Source: Halopenitus persicus (GTDB taxonomy: Archaea; Halobacteriota; Halobacteria; Halobacteriales; Haloferacaceae). Taken from it: a stretch of DNA of 64,000 nt. The notes beneath the pieces were generated by a model. That model was not told the DNA's origin. It searched no databases and saw only the letters and a list, made by a program, of their open reading frames with translations. Position numbers and translations under genes: made by a program. The stretch is taken from assembly GCF_002355635.1 (NCBI RefSeq), contig NZ_AP017558.1, positions 2,232,001-2,296,000 on the forward strand, read 5' to 3'. Positions 56,022 through 61,008 of this stretch are shown one piece after another (positions within the stretch are counted from its first letter, which is position 1; every line of letters begins with the position of its first letter).

Positions 56022-56274
56022 TACTGGGTAAAAGGTTGTGGAAACGGGGTGGATGGCGGTGAGGGGGGACATACCTCGTACCGAGTGACACGGGCACCGC
56101 ATCGTCGGTGGTGTCTCTCTCGCCGCCCCCTTCGTGACGAGCGTTGGATCGAGGCACCGGTGGAGCACGCCGCAAAGCCGATCCGACCATTTCGATGTCT
56201 CCACTCCCCGTATGGGAACGGTGAGTACGGACCTACACGGCGTTCCTAAGTGGCACGACGCCGAACCGATCGGT

Positions 56275-56400
56275 ATGTGCAGCATCGATCTCTCGCCCGA
56301 CGTGCTGGATACGATCGCCGCACAGCTGGCGGATCGCGAGCCGATCGTCAGGCGGGAACTCGCGGTGTCGCTGTATCGGGAGGGATGTTTGTCATTATAT
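56275..56400 (+). pseudogene. Truncated UPF0175-type antitoxin gene
   Basis: From the ATG at 56275 the frame reads MCSIDLSPDVLDTIAAQLAD, then REPIVRRELAVSLYREGCLS. This matches the N-terminal half of UPF0175 proteins: a beta strand, then the family's L-A-x-x-L-Y-x-x-G-x-L-S-L motif. After LSL (about 56397) similarity stops at an AT-rich junction, cattatataactgc. The expected GKAAELAG half is absent. No partner toxin (PIN or DUF3368) is near. This is a decayed toxin-antitoxin fragment beside the origin. Confidence 0.62.
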
Positions 56401-56486
56401 AACTGCTCGTTCGTCAACGATTTGCAGCCACGCGGAACGCCTCGGACTCGCGAGGAAAGAGTTACCGAAACCGGTCACTGCCGGGA

Positions 56487-56734
56487 GACACACCCCACCG
56501 TGTCACGTGTTCTCCGAAAGATCGACTCCTGAATTCATCACTCATCGATCGAACACGGACACACACCACCGTGTCACGTGTTCTTCCCGAGGAATTGGAC
56601 CACCGGATCCGTCATCCATTGCTCGGACACGGACACACACCACCGTGTCACGTGTTCTTCCCGAGGAATTGAACCACCGGATCCGTCATCCATTGCTCGG
56701 ACACGGACACACCCCACCGTGTCACGTGTTCTTC
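56487..56734 (-). repeat. Left ORB cluster: four origin-recognition boxes, minus orientation
   Basis: Four copies of caccgtgtcacgtgttc, with upstream gacacac and cca stretches, have cores at 56496, 56567, 56641 and 56715, spaced 71, 74 and 74 bp. The intervals between copies 2-3 and 3-4 are almost identical over their whole length (gaggaattg through gctcggac). Read on the minus strand each is GAACACGTGACACGGTGGTGTG, a haloarchaeal ORB pattern. They end 30 bp from the stop of the Orc1/Cdc6 gene. Confidence 0.88.
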
Positions 56735-56763
56735 CCCAATCATCACCGACTGGCCACGCGAGA

Positions 56764-57972
56764 TTAGAGCTGTCTGGCGACGTTGCGTGGGACCGTGATC
56801 CCCTCAAGGTCGGCGACGACGTCACGGACCGTGCCGAGATCGACGTTGAACTCGTACTCGTAGTACTGGCCGCCCGCTCGTCCCTCGTTCCGGGTGCGTC
56901 GATCGAGGATGCCAAGCATCGCGAGATCGGCGAGGTGATCGTGAAAGCGGCGGCGGACGAGAGGGTCGGTTTTGGACTCCGACGCGATGGTTCGATAGAG
57001 TGGATATATCTCGCGTATCCGGACCGGCGTCTCGTCCTGAAGTGCCAGTCCGAGCGCGGCGACGAGGGCGAGGTGGCCGTGGCGGGTGAGTTCGCGCATC
57101 CCGTGTTCGATCTGGTCCCGTTCGATCACGGTGAACGCCTCGTGGACGTGCTCCTCCGTGACCGTCGTGGCGTCGCCGGTGCGCACGAGTTCGCCGGCCT
57201 TGTAGAGGAGGGTGAGCGCCTGCCGCGCGCTCCCGGTGTCCTGGGCCGCGATCGCGGCGCACAACGCGATCACGCCGTCGCCGACGGCGTCGTCGTAGAA
57301 CGCGTCGTCGACGCGCCGATCGAGGATCGCCTCGAGTTCAGGGGCCTCGTAGGGCGGGAAGTGGATCTCCTCCTCACAGAGTGTATCCTTCACCTTCGGG
57401 GAGAGCTCGTCGCGGAACCCGAAGTCGTTGCTGATCCCGATCACGCCGGGTTTCGTCTCCTCGAGGTAGCCGTTCGCCCGCGCACGCGGGAGTTCGTAGA
57501 GGATCTCGTCGTCGGTGCCGATGTGGTCGATCTCGTCGAGAACGAGCAGGACGGTCCCGCCGATCGCCTCGAGTTCCTCGTACAGGAGGTCGAAGACGCG
57601 CTGTTGTGGATAGCCCGTGGTGCTGATGTGGGCCGCGGGCTCGCGAAACGTGTTCACGAGGCTGACCGCGACCTGGTAGGAGGACGCGAGGTTCGTGCAG
57701 TTCAGCCAGACGACCGAGAGGTCGACGTCGTCGTAGGCTGCGGTGTCGCGTTCGAGCCGGTCGAGGAGGTACTGGGAGACGAGGGTCTTGCCCACGCCGG
57801 TCTTCCCGTACAGGAAGACGTTCCGCGGTTGGGCACCGTTAACGATCGGTTGGAGGGCCGTTTTGTACGTCTCGAGTTCCTCCTCGCGGGCCGTGATCGA
57901 GTCCGGTTGGTAGTCCTCTCGAAGCAGATCCTCGTCACGGAAGACCTCCGTGTCCCGAGTGAACGTCGTCAT
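56764..57972 (-). CDS. orc1: Orc1/Cdc6-type replication initiator
   Basis: This protein has 402 residues from the ATG at 57972; longer in-frame starts run into the ORB array. Walker [12 protein letters not shown] (G56-T63), Walker [10 protein letters not shown] (D146/E147), sensor 1 [10 protein letters not shown] and a C-terminal winged helix (about residues 310-402) are present. Arg-finger and sensor 2 regions look intact ([18 protein letters not shown]). It binds ORBs and loads MCM helicase. Many haloarchaea have several paralogues with matched origins; the flanking ORBs here imply this origin is its own. Confidence 0.95.
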
Positions 57973-58066
57973 CGATACTCGGGCCTCTATGGAGCGGCAT
58001 CTTAATACTACCGTGTCGTGTGTAACATCTGAGTCGAATGTTCTTCGACAGGGCCGATCCGTCGAT

Positions 58067-58685
58067 GAACACGTGACATCGTGGTGTGTCCGTGTTCGAT
58101 CCACGACTGTTGATTCCGACCGATGGATGGCGGTTTCGGCGGATGAATCGTGATGATGAGTCAGGGGCTGATCCTTCCCGGAACACGTGACATCGTGGTG
58201 TGTCCGTGTGCGAGGAGGGATGTCGATCGGGAAAGAGCATTTGACACGGTGGGGTGTGTCTCCCTGGACGCTCGGCGTCGACGAAGATCGACGACGCTTC
58301 ACTCGAAACAGTGGTGTGTCTCTGTCCGAGGAGTGATGTCGATCGAGAAAGAGCATTTGACACGGTGGGGTGTGTCCCCGTGAGATCGATAGGGTGGCGA
58401 TCGACGTGGAACACGTGACACGGTGGGGTGTCTCCACGATGATTCGGTCACACTAGCCCGTGAAACGCGCTTCTTCACTCGAAACGGTGGTGTGTCTCCG
58501 TCCGAGGAGTGATGTCGATCTTTCGGAGAACACGTGACACGGTGGGGTGTGTCTTCCCGGACGATCGGCGTCGACGAAGACCCACCGCGATCGACGACGC
58601 TTCACTCGAAACAGTGGTGTGTCTCTGTCCGAGGAGTCATATCGATCGACAAAGAGCACTTGACACGGTGGGGTGTGTCTCCCCG
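58067..58685 (+). repeat. Right ORB cluster: ten boxes, plus orientation
   Basis: Ten boxes have GTGG cores at 58081, 58195, 58249, 58311, 58365, 58423, 58487, 58542, 58614 and 58668. Three variants occur: CACGTGACA(T/C)(C/G)GTGG, TTCACTCGAAACaGTGG, and TTTGACACGGTGGGG. Four neighbouring pairs (2-3, 4-5, 7-8 and 9-10) keep 54-55 bp between cores. Large blocks around them are duplicated, for example 58297-58376 against 58600-58681. Confidence 0.9.
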
Positions 58686-58770
58686 GACGACCGGCGTCGG
58701 CGAAGACTCACCGTGATCGACCACGCGTCACGCGACGACTCACGCTGACGACGTCTGTGGAGCGCCGTAC

Positions 58771-58857
58771 ACCCCACCCACCCTACCCAACCCCACCCTA
58801 CCCAACCCCACCCTACCCAACCCCACCCTACCCAACCCCACCCTACCCAACCCCACC
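58771..58857. repeat. 15-bp CCAACCCCACCCTAC array (G-rich, telomere-like on minus)
   Basis: Five or more near-perfect 15-bp units give, on the minus strand, repeated GTAGGGTGGGGTTGG. Four G-runs of 2-4 recur every 15 bases, so the strand could form stacked G-quadruplexes. The array lies about 90 bp beyond the last box of the main right ORB cluster and about 280 bp before the two distal boxes at 59134 and 59208. Confidence 0.9.
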
Positions 58858-59133
58858 GCTTCCGCTGTTAGTCAGAGCTGATCGTGGGCGGTAGCGGGTC
58901 CGGTTTGAACGCCGAAACCGTCCCTTGGTGTCGGTGTGGGAACGATTGCACCGGGGGCCGTCTCTTCAGTCGTCTCGATCCATCACTGCTGGTAGCCACA
59001 CGAACACGGTCCACTATCAGTTGTTGGTCCTGAGACGGTTCCGCTGACGAGTGACGCTCCGGAGACGGACCATCGCGGGACACAGACCACCGGAGTCGAT
59101 CGCCGTCGATCAGGGTCCGCGCGATCGACCACG

Positions 59134-59236
59134 CTTCACGTGAAACGGTGGTGTGTCCGTGTGCATATGGCGAGGCCGTACATATGGCGAGGCCGTCGAT
59201 CGACGCGGAACACGTGACACGGTGGGGTGTGTCCCC
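59134..59236 (+). repeat. Distal pair of ORBs, plus orientation
   Basis: Boxes with cores at 59148 (TTCACGTGAAACGGTGGTGTG) and 59222 (CACGTGACACGGTGGGGTG) lie 74 bp apart, the same spacing as in the left cluster. The first is the closest of all to the canonical haloarchaeal ORB. Between the two, gcgaggccgtacatat-like sequence is repeated twice. They lie 480 bp from the last box of the main right cluster. Confidence 0.85.
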
Positions 59237-59276
59237 GAATCGTCGACTCCGTCGTGAGCGACGTCGACGGCAGCAC

Positions 59277-59726
59277 TCAGTCGGCTCGATCCCCGACCGC
59301 GGTCGCCGACCGGATCGCGACGAACCGCACGTACCGGTCCAACGCGATCCACACGACGAGCGCGAGACTCGCGCCGAGCGCGTTCACGCCCATATCGGCG
59401 ACCGCAAACGTTCGCGCGGGCAGCTGCGACTGCACGAGTTCGATCGCCACGCCGTACCCGACCGTCCCGATCCACATCCCGACTCGTCGCCGCACCGTCG
59501 ACGCCGATCCGACCAGCGCGTAGCCGATCGACCCGCCGAGCCCCGTATACGCCAGGCCGTGCAGCCACGTCGAGTACGGAACGAGCCCGAAGGGTCCCCG
59601 CTCGATCGTTCCGGCTCCCGGCGGCGCGAACACGGAGTAGTACAGAATGATGCCGGCGACGAGCACGGCGGCTCCCAGGCGGAGACGCGTCGGGAGCAAC
59701 GGGAGTCGGAGCCGGCGCCGAGTCAC
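59277..59726 (-). CDS. VanZ-like membrane protein
   Basis: This protein has 149 residues from a GTG at 59726; another GTG at 59801 would add 25 polar residues. About four helices carry the VanZ pattern GLVPYSTWLHGLAYTGLGG with IELVQSQLPARTFAVADMGV, where the D in V-A-D-M-G-V-N is conserved. VanZ-like proteins occur in many bacteria and archaea and have no settled function. The gene lies just outside the distal ORBs and transcribes towards the origin. Confidence 0.8.
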   Translation of the reverse strand: MTRRRLRLPLLPTRLRLGAAVLVAGIILYYSVFAPPGAGTIERGPFGLVPYSTWLHGLAYTGLGGSIGYALVGSASTVRRRVGMWIGTVGYGVAIELVQSQLPARTFAVADMGVNALGASLALVVWIALDRYVRFVAIRSATAVGDRAD

Positions 59727-59809: not shown

Positions 59810-59872
59810 GCAGCGGACGACGACATTATGGCAGCGGACGACGACATTATGGCAGCGGACGACGACATCCAC
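59810..59872 (+). repeat. 21-bp repeat supplying the start codon of the 58-residue protein
   Basis: Nearly three copies of gcagcggacgacgacattat plus g start at 59810, 59831 and 59852. Each complete unit ends in ATG, so the number of units fixes how many in-frame starts the gene has (59828 and 59849). Confidence 0.88.
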
Positions 59873-60004
59873 CACGACGAACGGCGTGGAAACGCTGACG
59901 CGCTTTCCGAGCGGATCGATGTTTCCGAGCGGATCGATGCGGTCGACGTCGACGACGACGAAACCTGTTCTCCCAACGAGCTGCGTGAGCGTCTCGGACG
60001 CTAG
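59828..60004 (+). CDS. Small acidic protein, possible antitoxin-like
   Basis: This 58-residue frame (or 51 from the second ATG) has MAADDDI twice, then ALSERIDVSERIDAVDVDDD and ETCSPNELRERLGR. The C-terminal half is helical and charged. Its length and position between the VanZ gene (divergent) and another small frame support translation, but I recognise no family. If the RN-x3-H protein downstream is a toxin, this frame or the next could be its partner. Confidence 0.55.
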   Translation: MAADDDIMAADDDIHHDERRGNADALSERIDVSERIDAVDVDDDETCSPNELRERLGR

Positions 60005-60163
60005 CCGGGCGGACTGTCCGGCGGCCACAGTACTTCGGTCGGTCTCGTCGAGCGGTGGGTATATATGAATCAGGATCGGCTGACACATATCGAACGACGC
60101 CGAGATCACCGTTCACGCTGCGGAGCAATGTTTTAATAGTTCCCTCACCGATCTCTTGGTACG

Positions 60164-60310
60164 ATGTGCTTTGAGGCGCCGACCGTGGAAGAGGTCGCCG
60201 AAGCGACCGGTCAGGATCTCGAACAGGTGGCCAGGGACTTCCACGCCACCGCCAAGGCGGCTGAAGAGTCTCCCGATGAGACCGTCGACGTCTCTCCGGC
60301 GGACGATTAA
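60164..60310 (+). CDS. Small 48-residue acidic protein
   Basis: The frame starts at the ATG at 60164 and reads MCFEAPTVEEVAEATGQDLE, then QVARDFHATAKAAEESPDE. Predicted secondary structure is two helices with a short turn, as in small helical regulators. A TATA-like ttttaatag (about 60131-60139) lies about 25-33 bp upstream, which fits leaderless transcription. It ends 11 bp before the RN-x3-H gene on the same strand, so the two probably share an mRNA. No family is recognised. Confidence 0.62.
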   Translation: MCFEAPTVEEVAEATGQDLEQVARDFHATAKAAEESPDETVDVSPADD

Positions 60311-60321
60311 TCGATCTCTCG

Positions 60322-61008
60322 ATGGGTGATCGCGAAGAACAGGGGTCGACGAACTGCATTGACCAGCTACTTCACGATGCAAACAGTCCCCACCTCCCGG
60401 TCCAGCAGTACGAGTTGAAGCGATTGCGGCGTTCTGCGTGGATCGTCCACCGGAATTTCTATGATATTACCAAACTGGGGACGAACGTCACGCAGGATGG
60501 GATGATCAGCTCACCGGACGGACTCGACGAGCGAACGATCCGGACGGAAGTATTCAAACGAGTTCATAATTATCTCTCATCGTTGTACTCGTTCAACGAG
60601 CAAGCAAGAGCGATCATCGACGACAAATACACCGGTCGGACGATCGACAAAGCTGATTTTCTTCCCGATCCCGACGGGACACGACGTGCAAGCGTACCGG
60701 CGTATAGCAAGCGGCTCGTTTTTCTTTGGGGGCTCCGCAATCAGTTCACTCACGGGCAGTACCGGTGTCTGAACCTCGACCAACACACGGCCCACGACGG
60801 GACGGAATATTTCGAGCTCACGTTCCGGGAATCGCTGTATGCTCCGACTCCGACGGGTGGACTTGAGGAGTCCGGTGACTATCTTCGATACTGTACCGCA
60901 CGAGACCGGGAGCGTCCCCTCTGCTATATCGGCGAGTTTCACGAGGAGTACTTCAACGCGTTCGAGTCCGATCTCAACACGTGGTGTCGTCGGACGCTCC
61001 GGAGTTAA
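60322..61008 (+). CDS. Uncharacterised protein with a HEPN-like RN-x3-H motif
   Basis: This 228-residue protein has lower GC and more mixed codons than its neighbours, which suggests transfer. It is largely helical. One stretch, FLWGLRNQFTHGQYRCLN (about residues 132-149), contains R-N-x3-H, the catalytic pattern of HEPN ribonucleases, on a helix after KRLVF. Another histidine-rich region (LDQHTAHDGTEYF) follows. HEPN toxins pair with small antitoxins, and a 48-residue gene lies 11 bp upstream. Function is inferred only from this motif and context. Confidence 0.6.
   Translation: MGDREEQGSTNCIDQLLHDANSPHLPVQQYELKRLRRSAWIVHRNFYDITKLGTNVTQDGMISSPDGLDERTIRTEVFKRVHNYLSSLYSFNEQARAIIDDKYTGRTIDKADFLPDPDGTRRASVPAYSKRLVFLWGLRNQFTHGQYRCLNLDQHTAHDGTEYFELTFRESLYAPTPTGGLEESGDYLRYCTARDRERPLCYIGEFHEEYFNAFESDLNTWCRRTLRS

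Follow-up and report, generated by a model that had tools for sequence, protein, structure and literature searches.

A conserved gene pair of Halobacteria encoding a predicted HEPN-fold protein and a small acidic partner: a probable toxin-antitoxin-like module

Introduction

A stretch of 64,000 nucleotides from the genome of Halopenitus persicus (NZ_AP017558.1, positions 2,232,001 to 2,296,000; hereafter the window) holds two small adjacent genes on the forward strand, the first encoding 48 amino acids (60164-60310) and the second 228 (60322-61008). The original prediction saw in them the layout of a two-gene toxin-antitoxin (TA) or defence module of an unrecognised family, with the larger product as a HEPN-type toxin carrying an R-N-x3-H motif, and named structure prediction of that product as a check. 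This raises the question of whether the 228-residue protein belongs to the HEPN superfamily, in which no feature is more conserved than R-x4-H and the arginine is usually, though not invariably, followed by a polar residue (Anantharaman et al. 2013, PMC3710099), and of whether the short frame in front of it is a functional partner or a chance neighbour.

Results

The two genes are separated by a gap of 11 bp, their predicted coordinates and spacing being correct, and the pair is indeed lower in GC than its neighbours: 60164-61008 has a GC fraction of 0.567 and the window as a whole averages 0.672, and only 0.3% of 845-bp windows fall as low. Across the 18 loci measured the gap is 6-37 nt, mostly 8-15 nt. 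A TATA-like element, TTTTAATA (60131-60138, forward strand), can be read from the sequence about 30 nt 5' of the ATG of the small gene, and GCGAAAGGTATAATTG is found at a comparable position and distance before the small gene in other members of the family. As a putative promoter element, TTTTAATA would yield a leaderless or near-leaderless mRNA, and the pair would be served by a single promoter with the antitoxin gene first on the message. The promoter region and codons 1-39 of the small gene are about 95-97% identical to those of a sister genome, G066.

The AlphaFold2 model of the 228-residue protein, computed with 18 relatives in the input (pLDDT 86.1, pTM 0.87), has a body of four long helices (residues 29-50, 70-99, 127-144 and 199-227), with R139 and H144 at the end of helix 3, E93 within helix 2 and a beta-hairpin (150-168) between helices 3 and 4. 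The structural check named in the original prediction therefore gave a four-helix model of HEPN type. A motif at the end of helix 3 and an acidic residue in helix 2 are both described for HEPN domains, and in Csx1 a hairpin directly follows the motif (PMC3710099). Among the Foldseek matches listed against the PDB, a TM score above 0.5 was found only for the HepT toxins 7ae6 and 7ae8 (0.54-0.66 by target, probability 0.41-0.57), at Foldseek E-values above 1 that are not significant, and no match was found among viral models. HHalign gave probabilities of 5.4% against HepT (PF01934) and 0.3% against ApeA (PF18739), neither significant, which together with the lack of a profile match excludes membership in either family; HepT is excluded further because the protein has neither the AMPylated tyrosine of RX4HXY nor an adjacent MNT gene.

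The sole R-x4-H within the protein, RNQFTH (residues 139-144; 60736-60753, forward strand), is its predicted catalytic signature, with the codon of R139 at 60736-60738 and that of H144 at 60751-60753. R139 and H144 are invariant in all 24 aligned homologues, which are 25-44% identical to the window protein; G137, L138, H82, N83, Y89 and S90 are likewise invariant, and E93 and G145 are conserved in at least 90%. The residue after the arginine is N140 in the window protein and N, T, H or I across the homologues. Because this position varies, the conserved motif is R-x4-H and not RN-x3-H, and the motif originally predicted stands in its arginine and histidine and fails in its asparagine. By alignment and model, HNYLSSLYSFNE (60565-60600, forward strand) is an invariant or near-invariant block of helix 2 that comprises H82, N83, Y89, S90 and E93, the last of these in the context E-x2-R as against the typical E-x3-[KR]. 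Two marks of the HEPN superfamily are accordingly present, an R-x4-6-H motif, in its position as described (PMC3710099), and a conserved acidic residue in helix 2. The gene is under purifying selection. Its product has a pI of 5.9, which seems high for a haloarchaeal protein. Given the combination of fold, motif position and conservation, the 228-residue protein is very likely a member of the HEPN superfamily.

No significant match to this protein was found in Pfam, NCBIfam, PADLOC (2.0.0) or the PDB sequences, in agreement with the view of the family as unrecognised, and the alignment of 24 members returned no significant match in the same libraries either, Pfam HEPN models included. One homologue has a weak PDC-S04 match in PADLOC (E 0.0013, 16.5 bits) and the window protein has none; the 48-residue protein stays below the Pfam, NCBIfam and PADLOC cut-offs. 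Both proteins are annotated as hypothetical, where they are annotated at all, and therefore the family is missed by current pipelines; the open-access articles searched do not report the pair. The larger protein very likely represents a new HEPN family, its partner is new as well, and the two form a TA-like or defence module for which existing profiles give no match.

The 48-residue protein has a pI of 4.05 and a charge of about -12 and is modelled as a two-helix hairpin (residues 8-15 and 19-35) followed by an acidic tail of lower confidence (pLDDT 77 overall, about 90 in the hairpin). Across the family the partner is an acidic protein of 36-60 residues, and it is encoded directly upstream in 33 of the 33 distinct intact HEPN loci with upstream sequence, a few of the matches being weak (14-19 bits). 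An independent copy outside the training of the profile, on plasmid pHsi117 of Haloarcula sinaiiensis, also has a partner, MDMTGEMPETPEEVADITGGDPDRMKRTAARMLEDSESE, before the HEPN gene, and the predicted small upstream partner is confirmed by this copy and the 33 loci together. The pHsi117 pair (L129, 8859-9651) is unannotated and lies inside a type I restriction-modification (R-M) operon, with the HsdR gene on one side and the HsdS/HsdM genes on the other, and the deposited annotation has an opposite-strand ORF where the pair sits. In a test of specificity, a profile from five small proteins was run on 24,050 ORFs (943 kb, with some loci overlapping) and at 10 bits or more found nothing beyond HEPN partners and orphan copies that had been fetched on purpose.

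The dN/dS of the small gene is 0.03-0.09 in six of the eight computable pairs and 0.24 and 0.48 in the other two; this is a genuine coding gene under strong purifying selection at the protein level. The inter-protein distances of HEPN protein and partner correlate (Mantel r = 0.945, p = 0.0001) and therefore the two genes travel as a unit. Co-oriented, closely spaced and co-inherited, with the small gene first, they have the layout of a type II TA locus. Given that short frames are plentiful in high-GC DNA, it might be supposed that a spurious frame merely stands beside an unrelated gene whose R-x4-H is fortuitous; this is refuted by the conservation, by the dN/dS values and by the exclusive adjacency of the two genes, and it retains practically no probability.

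No ribbon-helix-helix or AbrB domain was found above cut-off in the partner, and a weak similarity to HTH_15, below cut-offs, is seen in 13 of 22 small-protein members. The latter raises the possibility that the small protein is a helix-turn-helix transcriptional autoregulator only, and that the enzyme is inhibited by an RNA or regulates itself; RNA regulation of a HEPN system is reported for AbiF (PMC12373285). This arrangement is improbable: a DNA-binding domain that works on its own would normally be longer than a two-helix hairpin, the small gene is selected at the protein level, and an RNA encoded between the genes would have only the 6-37 nt of the gaps measured.

Homologous loci were analysed as genomic stretches around each match. 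By protein search, relatives occur in 11 of 171 genomes of the taxonomic family and in 7 of 28 genera, and neither of the remaining two genomes of the genus has any; a profile search of the order found matches in 41 of 394 genomes. A pattern scan of GTDB contigs with the alignment found 26 loci, all in Halobacteria, among them Haloferax mucosum, Haloquadratum walsbyi J07HQW1, Natronococcus, Natronorubrum, Halorussus and Halorubrum laminariae, whereas the scan of genome contigs with a single sequence found no relatives. Eight PLSDB plasmids have a match, annotated as hypothetical or not annotated. Homologues are thus found on both chromosomes and plasmids, in a patchy distribution that is consistent with mobility, and none was found in viral contigs and phage records. 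On a plasmid of Haloarcula sp. GH36 the HEPN pair is preceded, at a distance of about 1 kb, by a UPF0175/DUF3368 gene pair (L128, 7151-7874), presumably another TA pair. A phylum-wide search added only distant proteins (E 1e-9 to 1e-3), several of which retain R-x4-H, and the small partner was not found beside them in the flanks examined. The HEPN-like proteins of L159, L160, L162 and L163, one of them from outside Halobacteria, are of this kind, keeping R-x4-H with no small partner in those flanks, and L010/L054 have lost the histidine of the motif.

The manner in which the loci decay bears on the role of the partner. In about ten of them a truncated or frameshifted HEPN gene stands behind an intact small gene (examples are G237, G208, G286, the second copy of G099, and G131), and intact orphan small genes with no HEPN gene downstream are found in three lineages (G066, G117 and G115/G145/G169). 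No intact HEPN gene without a small gene was seen among the loci examined. The toxin is lost first and the antitoxin never first, as a TA pair predicts, though the numbers involved are modest and were influenced in part by the way the loci were found. In G066 what is left of the small gene is codons 1-39, which run into the 3' end of a 58-residue frame that is discussed below. In this stretch of G066 (L101, 8611-9578) the fused remnant is followed by genes for a 166-residue protein (weak DUF7718 match, E 0.02) and for an acidic protein of 67 residues; another two-gene module may have taken the place of the first one here.

This pattern also bears on two other readings of the pair. The first is an abortive-infection or defence effector, in which the partner is a sensor or activator and the HEPN ribonuclease stays inactive until infection is detected. 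HEPN ribonucleases are common as defence effectors (PMC3710099), and one copy of the pair lies inside a type I R-M operon. This reading is unlikely: if the partner were an activator, a lone HEPN gene would do no harm and ought to turn up now and then, but none did among the loci examined, and it is the partner that is found orphaned; furthermore, the window protein has no PADLOC match and the neighbourhoods inspected are mostly not defence islands. The second is an ordinary, non-toxic RNA-processing enzyme assisted by a small cofactor. That both genes are under purifying selection would suit such an enzyme and some HEPN ribonucleases, Las1 for example, are housekeeping proteins (PMC3710099), but the pair is present in only about 10% of the genomes of the order and missing from the other two genomes of the genus, and its HEPN gene is often broken and often plasmid-borne, which leaves this reading very unlikely.

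The pair lies near an orc1/cdc6 gene (56764-58437) that has origin recognition box (ORB)-like repeats on both sides. The core of the last repeat is at 59217, 0.95 kb upstream of the small gene, which agrees with the predicted distance of about 1 kb. A perfect 15-nt tandem array, CCCACCCTACCCAAC (58762-58872), adjoins the ORB-like repeats, a strand-biased G/C tract by the origin. Of about 30 loci, an orc1/cdc6-like match within about 5 kb was found in the window, in G143, in G125 and in the clade G230/G281/G286, where the matches are weak (28% identity); this exceeds the 0.03 or so per locus expected from some 12.8 orc1 matches per genome, with the independence of the loci uncertain. In G143 (L014, C3:961000-977000) the pair is flanked on either side by an orc1/cdc6 gene less than about 1.3 kb away. 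Most loci, however, are not origin-linked; the proximity noted in the original prediction applies here and at a few other loci but not generally, and a general linkage of the pair to origins is a lead that is suggestive only. Origins of this kind are often on mobile or integrated replicons, where addiction modules accumulate. Against G066, the orc1/cdc6 and ORB block of the window (56042-59345) cannot be aligned, a different sequence of about 1 kb (L101, 5774-6832) standing there in place of its 3.3 kb; because the syntenic block is absent there, the origin of the window looks either recently gained here or lost in G066.

Between the origin and the pair lies the 58-residue frame (59828-60004), which the original prediction had placed with the module. 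It was rejected as a part of it: the frame lies within 21-nt and 18-nt tandem repeats, is built from them, and shows no conservation alongside the pair. Of this frame, G066 retains just the 3' end, together with the DNA downstream, joined to codons 1-39 of the small gene.

Discussion

The conserved pair, the invariant R-x4-H and the four-helix model support the predicted layout of a two-gene TA or defence module. It is probable that the locus is a TA-like module, different from MntA-HepT, in which a HEPN ribonuclease is paired with an acidic antitoxin that binds it directly; the module may have a part in defence as well. Counting towards this are the strongly acidic small protein beside a less acidic enzyme, the position of the small gene, the patchy and plasmid-borne spread, and the copy inside an R-M operon; counting against it are the non-significant Foldseek E-values and HepT and ApeA profile-profile scores, and a partner with no recognised antitoxin domain.

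By analogy with other HEPN ribonucleases, which are dimers that cleave RNA without metal (PMC3710099), the second gene would encode a metal-independent endoribonuclease that uses R139 and H144 and is probably a dimer. The first gene, transcribed first, would supply an acidic inhibitor of the HEPN protein that acts by direct binding. The two-helix hairpin of this inhibitor would most likely dock on the HEPN protein, and may bind the promoter too, and its flexible, strongly acidic tail would compete with RNA at the active-site cleft, by analogy with the tail of VapB. Upon loss of the small protein, be it through loss of the plasmid or locus, takeover by a virus, or stress, the freed ribonuclease would cut cellular RNA and growth would stop. 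It could further be supposed that the pair is a new type of TA system, its HEPN ribonuclease neutralised stoichiometrically and without AMPylation by a hairpin-plus-acidic-tail protein of about 40-60 residues, and that it is kept preferentially beside orc1/cdc6 replicators, preventing the loss of secondary origins and integrated replicons in haloarchaea; this larger proposal is speculative and fairly improbable.

The closest known system is MntA-HepT (HEPN-MNT, PF01934), which is also a two-gene operon with the antitoxin first and an R-x4-H HEPN protein, and whose HepT (7ae6/7ae8) is the best structural match of the window protein. The MntA-HepT partner is a nucleotidyltransferase, whereas the partner here is a two-helix acidic protein of 36-60 residues. 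HepT has RX4HXY with an AMPylated tyrosine (PMC7641770), whereas the family described here has R-x4-H-G-x-[YF], variable at the second position after the histidine. The window protein is moreover longer than HepT, has a beta-hairpin between helices 3 and 4, and, unlike HepT, does not match PF01934. The HEPN systems of abortive infection, RnlA-RnlB (RNase LS) and AbiF/AbiD among them, share the logic of a HEPN ribonuclease and the mobile or defence contexts; RnlA is tabulated in an operon with a separate antitoxin gene, and the same table describes no small acidic partner for these systems (PMC3710099). The HEPN domain of ApeA (PF18739) also has RN-x3-H at the end of a helix, but it is part of larger proteins (open frames of about 450-540 residues) of which only the motif aligns with the window protein, and ApeA-type HEPN was not found in the Halobacteria genomes sampled. 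VapBC provides a mechanistic analogue, with a small upstream antitoxin whose flexible C-terminal tail lies over the active site of the ribonuclease (PMC10127717), although VapC is a PIN-domain nuclease and not a HEPN protein.

In the literature compared, the most fully described HEPN TA systems are kept silent by antitoxins that are nucleotidyltransferases and act through AMPylation. Constant pairing with a tiny acidic protein, as in the present family, would represent a second means of restraining a HEPN ribonuclease, and it occurs in Halobacteria, a group with good laboratory genetics. The profiles and the predictions for R139 and H144 make the family directly testable.
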